Notes under the pieces: model-generated
The model's input: the letters and a program-made list of their open reading frames with translations, nothing else
What the model was told of the DNA's origin: nothing
Databases searched by the model: none
Part shown: one piece after another, positions 24,854 through 39,844 of the stretch
Numbering within the stretch: position 1 is the stretch's first letter
Layout of the letters: the number at the start of each line of letters is the position of its first letter
Made by a program: the position numbers and the translations under genes
Origin: Modestobacter sp. VKM Ac-2986
Lineage (GTDB): Bacteria; Actinomycetota; Actinomycetes; Mycobacteriales; Geodermatophilaceae
Assembly: GCF_026967795.1 (NCBI RefSeq)
Contig: NZ_JAPVBH010000005.1
Span: 310,771 to 374,770 of the forward strand
DNA: 64,000 nt
Direction of reading: 5' to 3'

Positions 24854-26224
24854 TCAGCGGTCACGGACGGCGTTGTACCGGTCCAGGGAGACCAGCCGCT
24901 CGTGGGCGTGGTCGACGATCGGCTCCGGGTAGCCGGCCGGGATGCCGCCGGGTGCGGTCCACGGCTCGTGCACGTACTTCGGGTCCAGGTCGCGCAGCTC
25001 GGGCACCCACTGCTTGACGTAGGTGCCGTCGGGGTCGAACTTCTTGCCCTGGGTGACCGGGTTGAACACCCGGTAGTACGGCGAGGAGTCGGTGCCGGTG
25101 CCGGCCACCCACTGCCAGCCGTGCTGGTTGCTGGCCAGGTCGCCGTCGACCAGGTGCTCCATGAACACCTTGGCGCCCACCGTCCACTCCTGGTGCAGGT
25201 CCTTGACCAGGAAGGAGGCGACGATCATCCGCACCCGGTTGTGCACGTACGCCTCGCCGAGCATCTGCCGCATCCCGGCGTCGATGATCGGGAAGCCGGT
25301 GCGGCCGGTGCGCCAGGCCTCGAGCAGCTCGTCGGCGTGCGGGCCGGAGTCGTAGGCCATCGACTGCAGCTCGGGCTTGAGGTAGGCCCGCGCGGAGTCG
25401 GGGCGGTGCCACAGGACGTCGGCGTAGAAGTCCCGCCAGGCGAGCTCGTCGGTGTAGCGGCGCACGGACTCCCCGCCGTCGTCGTGCGCGGCCAGGTCGG
25501 CGACCAGCGTCCGCGGGTGCACGCAGCCGTACTTCAGGTAGGCCGACAGCCGGCTCGTGCCGTTCGTGCCCGGGGTGTTGCGGCCCTCGGCGTACCCGAG
25601 CAGCCGCTCGTCACGGAAGTGCGCCCACGCCTCCAGCCCGGCGGCCTCACCGGCCGGGGGCAGCCGGACGCCGTCCAGCTCCGGCCGCGGCCGCGGGTCC
25701 TCCGAGCGCACCCCGGTCGCCCACGGGACGCCGTCCGGACGCGGGGCAGGAGCGTGCCAGCCGTGCTCGCGCCAGGCCCGGGAGAACGGCGTGAACACCT
25801 TGAAGGGGGTGCCGTCGTTCTTGACCACCCGGCCGGGGGCGACCAGGTACGGCGAGCCGGTGCGCACGAACGGGACGTCGCCCAGCGCCTGCTCGACCGC
25901 GGCATCACGCTGCCGGCCGTAGGGGCCGGCGTCGGCGGTGACGTGCACCGACCCCGCACCCAGCTCCTCGACCAGCTGCGGGAGGACCTGCGCCGGGTCG
26001 CCGTCGCGGAAGACCAGCGCCCCGCCGGTCTGCTCGCGCAGGTCGGCCAGGCAGTCGAGCAGGAACGCCCGCCGCGGGTCTCCCGAGGGGCCGTAGATGC
26101 GGTCGTCGAAGACGAACACCGGCAGGACGGCGCCGTCGGGACCGGCCGCCTCGATCGCGGCCAGCAGTGCCGGGTGGTCGGTCAGCCGGAGATCGCGGCG
26201 GAACCAGAGGACAGCGGTGGGCAC
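24854..26224 (-). CDS. phr: Deoxyribodipyrimidine photolyase (class I CPD type)
   Basis: 456 aa. N-terminal antenna domain AVLWFRRDLRLTDHPALLAA; FAD-binding half with TSRLSAYLKYGCVHPRTL, ELAWRDFYADVLWHRPD, GFPIIDAGMRQMLGEAYVHNRVRM, VASFLVKDLHQEW and the cofactor-site WQWVAGTGTDSSPYYRVFNP. The tryptophan electron-transfer residues sit in these segments. It repairs UV cyclobutane dimers using blue light. GTG start. Near the Fpg/Nei gene. Confidence 0.95.
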   Translation of the reverse strand: MPTAVLWFRRDLRLTDHPALLAAIEAAGPDGAVLPVFVFDDRIYGPSGDPRRAFLLDCLADLREQTGGALVFRDGDPAQVLPQLVEELGAGSVHVTADAGPYGRQRDAAVEQALGDVPFVRTGSPYLVAPGRVVKNDGTPFKVFTPFSRAWREHGWHAPAPRPDGVPWATGVRSEDPRPRPELDGVRLPPAGEAAGLEAWAHFRDERLLGYAEGRNTPGTNGTSRLSAYLKYGCVHPRTLVADLAAHDDGGESVRRYTDELAWRDFYADVLWHRPDSARAYLKPELQSMAYDSGPHADELLEAWRTGRTGFPIIDAGMRQMLGEAYVHNRVRMIVASFLVKDLHQEWTVGAKVFMEHLVDGDLASNQHGWQWVAGTGTDSSPYYRVFNPVTQGKKFDPDGTYVKQWVPELRDLDPKYVHEPWTAPGGIPAGYPEPIVDHAHERLVSLDRYNAVRDR

Positions 26225-37705: not shown

Positions 37706-38548
37706 GTGACCGCACCCGCCACGCTCGCCGGCGTCGCCGAGCTCACCGACCTCCTCGCCGACGGCGGGGCCCTGGTGCTCTCCGGCGCGGGGCTCTCGAC
37801 CGACTCCGGCATCCCCGACTACCGGGGCGCCACCGGGTCGCTGCGCCGGCACACCCCGATGACCTACCAGACCTTCACCCGCGACCCGCGCGGCCGGCAC
37901 CGCTACTGGGCGCGCAGCTTCGTCGGCTGGCGGCAGATCGGCGACGCCCGCCCCAACGACGGGCACCGCGCCGTGGCCGCGCTCCAGCAGGCCGGGTGCG
38001 TGGGCGAGGTGATCACCCAGAACGTCGACGGGCTGCACCAGGCCGGCGGTGCCCGTGACGTGCTGGAGCTGCACGGCGGGCTGGACCGCACCGTCTGCCT
38101 GGGCTGCGGCGACGTCGCCTCCCGCGCCGACCTCGACGTCCGGCTGCGGGCGGTGAACCCCGGCTTCCGGCCCGACGTGGGCGACGAGGTCAACCCCGAC
38201 GGCGACGTCGAGCTGCCCGAGGAGGCCCTCGACGGCTTCGTGATGGTCGACTGCCTGGCCTGCGGTGGCGGCCCGCTCAAGCCCGACGTCGTCTTCTTCG
38301 GCGAGACGGTGCCGCGGGACCGGGTCGACCGCTGCTTCGACCTGGTGGCGGAGGCGGACTCGCTGGTGGTGCTGGGGTCGTCGTTGACCGTGATGAGCGG
38401 CTACCGGTTCGTCATCGCCGCGGCCAAGCGCGGCATCCCGGTCGCCATCGTCAACTCCGGACCCACCCGCGGGGACGCGAAGGCCACGGTCCGGGTCGAC
38501 GCCCCGCTGGGGCTCGTGCTGCCCGAGCTGGCCGGCCGGCTCGCGTGA
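37706..38548 (+). CDS. NAD-dependent protein deacetylase, Sir2 family
   Basis: 280 aa. GALVLSGAGLSTDSGIPDYRG (NAD site), ITQNVDGLHQAGG, the catalytic His in LELHGGLDRTVCLGC, two CxxC zinc pairs (CLGC and CLAC), and KPDVVFFGETVP are intact, so an active deacetylase or related deacylase is expected. An insert of about 25 residues between the zinc pairs (NPGFRPDVGDEVNPDGDVEL) is typical of this bacterial class. The stop overlaps the next gene by 4 bp, implying a shared transcript. Confidence 0.95.
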   Translation: MTAPATLAGVAELTDLLADGGALVLSGAGLSTDSGIPDYRGATGSLRRHTPMTYQTFTRDPRGRHRYWARSFVGWRQIGDARPNDGHRAVAALQQAGCVGEVITQNVDGLHQAGGARDVLELHGGLDRTVCLGCGDVASRADLDVRLRAVNPGFRPDVGDEVNPDGDVELPEEALDGFVMVDCLACGGGPLKPDVVFFGETVPRDRVDRCFDLVAEADSLVVLGSSLTVMSGYRFVIAAAKRGIPVAIVNSGPTRGDAKATVRVDAPLGLVLPELAGRLA

Positions 38549-38853
38549 CCCGGGAGGTCGAGCACACCGCCGACGGCCGCTGGATCGTCGTCGACGGACG
38601 GCGCTGGCGGACGGCGGACCCGTCGCTGCCCGAGGACGTGCGGGCGCGCCTGCTGCACCACCTGGGCGTGGGCCGCTCCGGCGTGCGCGCCGCCAAGGGC
38701 GACGATGCCGCCGTGACCGCGGCCCGGGCGCGGGTGCAGCTGGCCAAGACCGGGCTGGGCGAGCGCGGCACCGCCTGGTGGGAGCAGGACGACGCCGAGC
38801 GGCAGGCCCGCTGGGGAGCGGCGCTGGAGCAGCTGGACGCGCTGGACGCCTGA
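38545..38853 (+). CDS. Conserved small protein of unknown function
   Basis: 102 aa, GTG start overlapping the sirtuin stop. EVEHTADGRWIVVDGRRWRTADPSLPEDVRARLLHHLGVGR is followed by helices with RARVQLAKTGLGERGTAWWE. The WRxxDPxLPE pattern is common in short actinobacterial proteins that are sometimes labelled Tol transporters without good reason. Soluble, highly charged. Coupling to the sirtuin gene is the only functional hint. Confidence 0.8.
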   Translation: MTREVEHTADGRWIVVDGRRWRTADPSLPEDVRARLLHHLGVGRSGVRAAKGDDAAVTAARARVQLAKTGLGERGTAWWEQDDAERQARWGAALEQLDALDA

Positions 38854-38878
38854 GGGCCGTGTCGGCGAACACGGCCCT
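38853..38878 (+). terminator. Hairpin terminator overlapping a stop codon
   Basis: AGGGCCGTGT (from the A of the TGA) pairs perfectly with ACACGGCCCT across the loop CGGCGA. It ends the sirtuin operon. Confidence 0.7.
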
Positions 38879-38929
38879 GAGGGAGCCTGGGCGGTTGATC
38901 GCGGCGCGCTCCGGGCAGGAGGTCCGGCG

Positions 38930-39844
38930 ATGCAGACCTTCCTGCCGGTCGCCGACTTCACCGAGTCCGCCCGGCTCCTCGACAACCCCCGCCTCGGCAA
39001 GCAGCGCGTGGAGTGCCTCCAGGTGCTGCGTGCCCTGGAGCTCCCCGACTACGGCTGGGCCAACCACCCGGTCGTGATCATGTGGCGCGGGTACACCGCC
39101 GGCCTGGTCGTCTACTCCCTGGCCATGGTGCGGGTCTGGAAGGAGCGCGGTTTCGCCGACTCGACCGAGGCGCTGATCTCCGAGTTCGCCCCCGAGGCCG
39201 CGGCCATGACCCAGGCCGAGGCGGCGGAGGCGGGGCTGCTGCCCAGCTGGGTGGGCGACGCCGAGCTGCACCTGTCACACCGGTCCAACCTCGTCGCCAA
39301 GGACCCGGAGTTCTACCGGTCGAGGTTCCCCGAGGACCCCGACGACCTGCCCTACAAGTGGCCCGGTGCGGACGACGTCCCGCCCGCCCCCGCACCGGAG
39401 GGGACTCCGGTGTGGGTGGTTCGGCCGCGGGCGCACAACGAGCTGGGCGCGGCGGTCTTCGGCGGGATCGTCGGGCTGGGCACCCAGTCCGGCATCGACG
39501 TCGACGCCACCGGGCAGTCGCCGGCCGAGCTGCGGGCGTTGTCGAAGGAGCTGTCCGGCAAGCGCCCGGCCAAGGACCTGCGCCAGCTCACCGCCTTCCT
39601 CGACGAGGTCGCGCCCGGTGACCTGGTCGGCCTGCCGATCGAGGTGGGCGCCGGGCTGCTGCTCGGCCGGGTGGTCGGCGACTACTCCTTCCACGGCCGC
39701 GAGCTGCTGCCGCACCGCCGTCCGGCCCGGTTCGAGGCGGTCGTGCCCCGCTCCGCGGCGCGGCCACCGGCGACGCTGCAGGACCCGCGCGCGCTGTTCC
39801 GGGTGACCCTCGACCCGGACGCCGTCCCGCCCGGTCTGCGCTGA
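38930..39844 (+). CDS. MSMEG_6728-type pyrimidine-dimer glycosylase fused to a PUA-like reader domain
   Basis: 304 aa. Residues 1 to about 150 match the MSMEG_6728 / pyrimidine-dimer DNA glycosylase-related family: MQTFLPVADFTESARLLDNPRLGKQRVECLQVLRAL, NHPVVIMWRGYTAGLVVYSL, VWKERGFADST. Residues about 160-304 (VWVVRPRAHNELG, TAFLDEVAPGDLVGLPI, GAGLLLGRVVGDYSF, HRRPARFEAVVPR) resemble the PUA/EVE-like domain found at the N-terminus of some Mrr-type restriction proteins, thought to sense modified bases. A link of about 15 Pro-rich residues joins them. Predicted role: damage or modified-base processing of DNA. ATG 38930 with AGGAGG upstream. Confidence 0.75.
   Translation: MQTFLPVADFTESARLLDNPRLGKQRVECLQVLRALELPDYGWANHPVVIMWRGYTAGLVVYSLAMVRVWKERGFADSTEALISEFAPEAAAMTQAEAAEAGLLPSWVGDAELHLSHRSNLVAKDPEFYRSRFPEDPDDLPYKWPGADDVPPAPAPEGTPVWVVRPRAHNELGAAVFGGIVGLGTQSGIDVDATGQSPAELRALSKELSGKRPAKDLRQLTAFLDEVAPGDLVGLPIEVGAGLLLGRVVGDYSFHGRELLPHRRPARFEAVVPRSAARPPATLQDPRALFRVTLDPDAVPPGLR

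Follow-up and report, generated by a model that had tools for sequence, protein, structure and literature searches.

The nucleophile of phage T4 endonuclease V (DenV), a pyrimidine dimer glycosylase/AP-lyase, is the alpha-amine of Thr2, exposed by removal of the initiator methionine; Glu23 is also catalytic. Many of the sampled proteins of the MSMEG_6728 family (NF038085), from Streptomyces-like genomes, mycobacteria and phages, are stand-alone forms of about 135-180 aa, and the Mycobacterium smegmatis member is given as a cytoplasmic or conserved hypothetical protein (PMC7174638, PMC4694148). Readers attached to DNA-attacking enzymes are found in VcaM4I (EVE-HNH) and other PUA-superfamily modification-dependent endonucleases, the enzyme half of VcaM4I-type proteins being a nuclease, and PDC-S02 and the Mrr-type and McrB-type type IV restriction proteins have an N-terminal reader. 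A glycosylase acting on a modified base is exemplified by Brig1, a defence enzyme of the uracil DNA glycosylase superfamily that is found in defence loci and removes glucosyl-hydroxymethylcytosine (PMC11078745). The protein analysed here joins an MSMEG_6728 domain to a PUA/YTH-like domain. Each part is of a known kind, and the fusion is new to the sources that we searched: no paper describing it, and none pairing a pyrimidine dimer DNA glycosylase with an EVE domain, was found in the open-access literature, and a survey of EVE-domain contexts makes no mention of glycosylases or pyrimidine dimers (PMC7641849).

The window, the whole 64,000-nucleotide stretch of DNA that we analysed, comes from a stone- and desert-dwelling type of bacterium. 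The fusion gene, defined by its open reading frame, profile matches and structure model, occupies positions 38930-39844 of the forward strand and encodes 304 aa; its closest sequenced relatives are in Modestobacter and Blastococcus (96% to M. muralis), which places the window in Geodermatophilaceae. Because the gene is a single uninterrupted reading frame and is conserved across genera and families, we can rule out a chance fusion or an assembly join. An AGGAGG ribosome-binding site (38917-38922, forward strand) lies 7 nt 5' of the ATG. Between the upstream 102-aa gene and the fusion, RNAalifold predicts a hairpin with a perfect 9-bp stem (38854-38877, no strand assigned), with compensatory change in seven of 13 pairs across six species with Modestobacter-type genomes. 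The hairpin lacks a T-run and is probably a transcription terminator; since it separates the fusion gene from the gene upstream, the fusion gene is probably its own transcription unit. A candidate promoter, GTTG-N15-GGGCA (38894-38917, forward strand), is conserved 5' of the gene in several Modestobacter loci and may be weakly SigF-like. We considered whether the window gene has a SigF-type promoter of its own, and the case for it is weak. The core sequence of the SigF -10 element is GGGTA; the region upstream of the window gene has GGGCA.

The N-terminal half (residues 1-145; 38930-39364, forward strand) is an all-helical domain and a full member of the MSMEG_6728 family, scoring 215.4 bits with NF038085 against a cut-off of 100 and covering positions 1-148 of the 149 in the profile. 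It scores 71.1 bits with PF03013 (Pyr_excise), for which the gathering score is 23 and T4 DenV itself (L059) scores 53.3. The sequence-only reading had placed this half in the MSMEG_6728 family, as a relative of pyrimidine-dimer glycosylases, and both profiles agree. On these matches we assign it to the Pyr_excise family with high confidence, and we have moderate confidence that it works like endonuclease V. Scans with Pfam and NCBIfam detected no uracil DNA glycosylase superfamily domain. What the protein has in common with Brig1 is the concept of a glycosylase directed at a modified base, and neither the enzyme superfamily nor a defence-locus setting.

The near-invariant N-terminus, M1-Q2-T3-F4 (38930-38941, forward strand), lines up with the N-terminus of processed T4 DenV. 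The start and the sequence M/V-Q-T-F are common to 53 loci, many of which have an in-frame stop 1-6 codons before the start, which fixes the N-terminus in place. We built a bridging alignment from DenV relatives, intermediate actinobacterial members of the family (L160, L164, L168) and MSMEG_6728 members; in it, M1 falls next to DenV Thr2 at the start of the chain. The threonine at position 2 that serves DenV as nucleophile once methionine is removed is absent, and position 2 is glutamine. Glutamine as second residue normally blocks methionine removal, so Met1 should stay in place. The fixed position of the N-terminus suggests that a free amine on Met1 may act as the nucleophile. Glu28 (39011-39013, forward strand) aligns with the catalytic Glu23 of DenV, a correspondence made by alignment through the intermediates and not by structure; the spacing from Glu28 to an NHP motif is equal, and ungapped, in the intermediate members and the window protein. 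Glu28 is invariant in cellular copies and in 80 viral copies, although the viral search pattern covered that stretch. The window protein thus shares with DenV the PF03013 model, an alignable catalytic glutamate, an N-terminus at the same alignment position and phage-borne relatives, and differs from it in lacking Thr2, in having Val27 for Arg22, and in an added helical insert and the C-terminal reader.

Structural comparison gave no such link. The N-terminal half modelled alone has a pLDDT of 96, and a Foldseek search of the PDB with this model found no structural relative, endonuclease V included. Against a viral library, the model matched phage and giant-virus proteins of similar type with E-values down to 3e-8; the single annotated pyrimidine dimer glycosylase in that library was a weak match (E 0.66, probability 0.77). 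Shallow profiles of the N-domain and of DenV relatives, compared with each other, gave no signal, and a PHROGs search gave no match.

The N-domain also matches at least 590 viral contig stretches. The best 80 of these matches (L282-L361) are all stand-alone proteins of 135-181 aa; plasmids, phages and the best viral contigs yielded no fused copy. MSMEG_6728-type proteins are thus abundant, stand-alone and very conserved in environmental phages. In the 80 viral copies T3, F4, D18, W52, Y62, W70, H117, K124, Y129, Y142 and W144 are invariant; these positions lie outside the search patterns, whereas positions 21-28 and 41-47 of the viral copies lie inside them. Such invariance is as expected of an active enzyme, and with invariant residues in cellular and phage copies alike we consider a pseudo-enzyme unlikely. 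In annotated actinophages the N-domain gene lies near genes for dUTPase, thymidylate kinase, MazG, DNA helicase, RecA and DnaE, a position that may be likened to that of denV as a phage-borne repair gene.

A proline-rich linker (residues 146-158; 39365-39403, forward strand), variable in length and sequence in the alignment, leads to the PUA/YTH-like reader domain (residues ~159-296; 39404-39817, forward strand), which we delimited by Foldseek, a PDC-S02 match and alignment. Its motif consists of W162, GDxV (230-233), Y252, HxR (262-264), R274 and LQDP (283-286). Residues 161-275 match the PADLOC model PDC-S02 (E 2e-6; relatives reach 1.7e-11); the matched part is the first ~125 positions of PDC-S02, which precede an Mrr_cat nuclease in two loci (L061, L062), bearing out the likeness to an Mrr-type reader module that had been proposed earlier. 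An AlphaFold2 model built with 17 relatives has a pLDDT of 93 and a pTM of 0.88. All 50 Foldseek matches listed from the PDB are YTH domains (probability 0.93-1.00, ~130 columns aligned), with modest E-values, from 4e-3. YTH domains belong to the PUA superfamily, so the PUA-like fold that the sequence-only reading had predicted for this half holds, with nearest solved relatives that are YTH rather than EVE or SRA domains. Sequence searches of the PDB did not pick up this relationship: no YTH or EVE chain was matched by profile, and single-sequence, whole-protein and C-domain profile searches returned nothing or chance matches.

Elsewhere the reader domain has other partners: in L063 a HEPN-like region (below the curated cut-off), in L064 a CBS region with a weak likeness to DS11 anti-phage proteins, and in L065 an McrB-like AAA protein. 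This last protein (L065:1-1995, reverse strand) apparently has two PUA/YTH-like readers with an Mrr_N domain between them. W162, G230-D231-x-V233, P236, G246, Y252, H262 and R274 are common to the fusion and the Mrr-, McrB-, HEPN- and CBS-associated copies, whereas the LQDP-like C-terminal motif is present in all PUA forms of the fusion and absent from the restriction-associated copies. The reader is thus homologous to that of PDC-S02 and of Mrr-type and McrB-type proteins, but it is C-terminal where theirs is N-terminal, its effector is a glycosylase-family domain, and it is encoded by a core gene; the window protein has no AAA or nuclease domain, Mrr_cat included, and PF03013 is its sole Pfam match. 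No relatives of the C-domain were found on plasmids.

The fusion is old and conserved. It is present in 26 of the 30 Geodermatophilaceae loci that we fetched, the other four being three with a basic coiled tail and one that was not parsed. It also occurs in Kineosporiaceae (Kineococcus, Pseudokineococcus and probably Quadrisphaera, whose contig is truncated) and in families f4, f17, f32 and f48. Stand-alone forms of ~160 aa dominate Streptomyces-like and mycobacteria-like genomes, and in another clade a degenerate DEAD/RecQ-like module replaces the PUA domain (L243, a weak DEAD match). This last architecture was seen in other actinobacteria (L229, L231, L233-L236, L238-L244, L246 and L247), and we know of no description of it. 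Basic coiled C-terminal tails, ending like RRRSRAAKxGWxTRRAN, were seen in L176-L178, L032, L033 and L232. On a tree of the N-domain the PUA label needs two changes, with one possible; many forks of this tree are unresolved. Row L020 of the tree and rows L199 and L216 of the tail table were start-finding artefacts and were left out. Purifying selection acts on both domains (dN/dS about 0.1-0.45).

Within Geodermatophilaceae the gene has the character of a core gene. Of the 99 species of the family, 90 have an NF038085 match (104 of 395 in the class), the gene is single-copy, and its neighbours are fixed: SRPBCC, SIR2, the 102-aa gene, the fusion, a phosphotransferase (APH), a glyoxalase-like protein (VOC), MscL and a zinc-ribbon protein. 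This housekeeping synteny is constant in 26 loci and rules out a defence-island context. The 102-aa gene (38545-38853), between SIR2 and the fusion, is conserved in position and has no Pfam match. Outside Geodermatophilaceae, GGGTA lies upstream, within 45 nt of the start, in eight of 26 relatives, against 0.38 expected. In M. smegmatis, MSMEG_6728 needs SigF, a stress sigma factor, and falls strongly when sigF is mutated (-5.57/-4.75; PMC4694148).

The glycosylase-family domain, the phage DNA-metabolism context, the stress-sigma control, the core status and the reader are together best fitted by stress-induced DNA repair. We propose, with roughly even confidence, that the protein is a stress-response DNA base-excision enzyme, a lesion glycosylase/lyase positioned by a nucleic-acid reader. 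The N-terminal half would be a divergent T4 endonuclease V family member that probably uses its exposed N-terminal amine to attack a damaged pyrimidine, Glu28 serving as catalytic acid. The PUA/YTH-like domain would grip the DNA, probably where a base is flipped or altered, and deliver the enzyme half to its substrate; the likeliest job would be to repair UV or oxidative lesions in the dark, in actinobacteria that are exposed to the sun and tolerate desiccation. Against this stand the loss of Thr2 and Arg22 of DenV and the lack of any Foldseek or profile-profile link between the N-terminal half and DenV. In its favour, UvdE was not found in the organism's own genome. A 456-aa photolyase gene, the only PF00875 match in the genome, lies ~13 kb from the fusion (24854-26224, reverse strand), so UV repair does not depend uniquely on the fusion gene.

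A narrower version of this explanation, and one that does not exclude it, is that the protein is a repair enzyme whose C-domain serves as a general DNA-binding module and reads no base. We regard this as plausible, at somewhat less than an even chance. It would accord with the replacement of the domain in other lineages by a helicase-like module or a basic coiled tail, or its absence there, with the conserved arginines R165, R212, R218, R264 and R274, and with the erosion of the first third of the reader domain in family f17 (L048, L049, L051). On the other hand, purifying selection maintains the C-domain, and characterised members of the superfamily with this fold and motif often read modified bases.

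Less probably, the target of the protein under stress is RNA or the nucleotide pool, with a C-domain that binds RNA and an N-terminal half that is a nuclease or hydrolase chemically unrelated to T4 endonuclease V. YTH domains bind m6A RNA in eukaryotes, and neither the structural searches nor the residues at DenV positions 2 and 22 connect the N-terminal half to endonuclease V; in addition, MSMEG_6728 falls 4-fold on zinc depletion in M. smegmatis (PMC7174638). We nonetheless consider an RNA or nucleotide substrate unlikely, given the Pyr_excise membership by sequence, the degenerate DEAD/RecQ-like helicase segment among the sister C-terminal modules, the Mrr and McrB partners of the reader and the location of phage copies in DNA replication modules.

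The sequence-only reading had offered phage defence beside repair as a use for the fusion, and our analysis favours repair and weakens defence. An anti-phage base-excision enzyme would work like Brig1, with the reader recognising a modified phage base and the glycosylase half removing it. Glycosylase-based defence exists (PMC11078745, PMC13160076), and the same reader, part of the PADLOC candidate PDC-S02, has anti-phage partners elsewhere: Mrr_cat, McrB-type AAA, HEPN and CBS/DS11. The fusion gene, however, is near-universal, single-copy and syntenic, lies outside defence islands, has a homologue in a stress-sigma regulon and gave no fused copy among plasmids, phages or the best viral contigs. 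Defence genes tend to be mobile and patchily distributed; the fusion gene is neither, so defence fits less well. We judge it improbable, kept alive only by the reader module's other partners. Least probable in our view is that the reader guides an endonuclease V-like half, with the unprocessed Met1 amine as nucleophile, to excise an enzymatically modified base, be it for demethylation-like base removal or in a system directed at modified phage DNA. Such a protein would be to type IV restriction what glycosylases are to nucleases.

The MSMEG_6728 family is common in phages and in many actinobacteria, and the fusion ties it to nucleic-acid recognition. Should modified bases prove to be what the fusion excises, type IV restriction readers would be guides of glycosylases as well. 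The repair inventory of Kineococcus radiotolerans lists no UV endonuclease (PMC2587704); if the fusion repairs UV damage, an unlisted enzyme would join the repair kit of radiation- and desiccation-tolerant actinobacteria.
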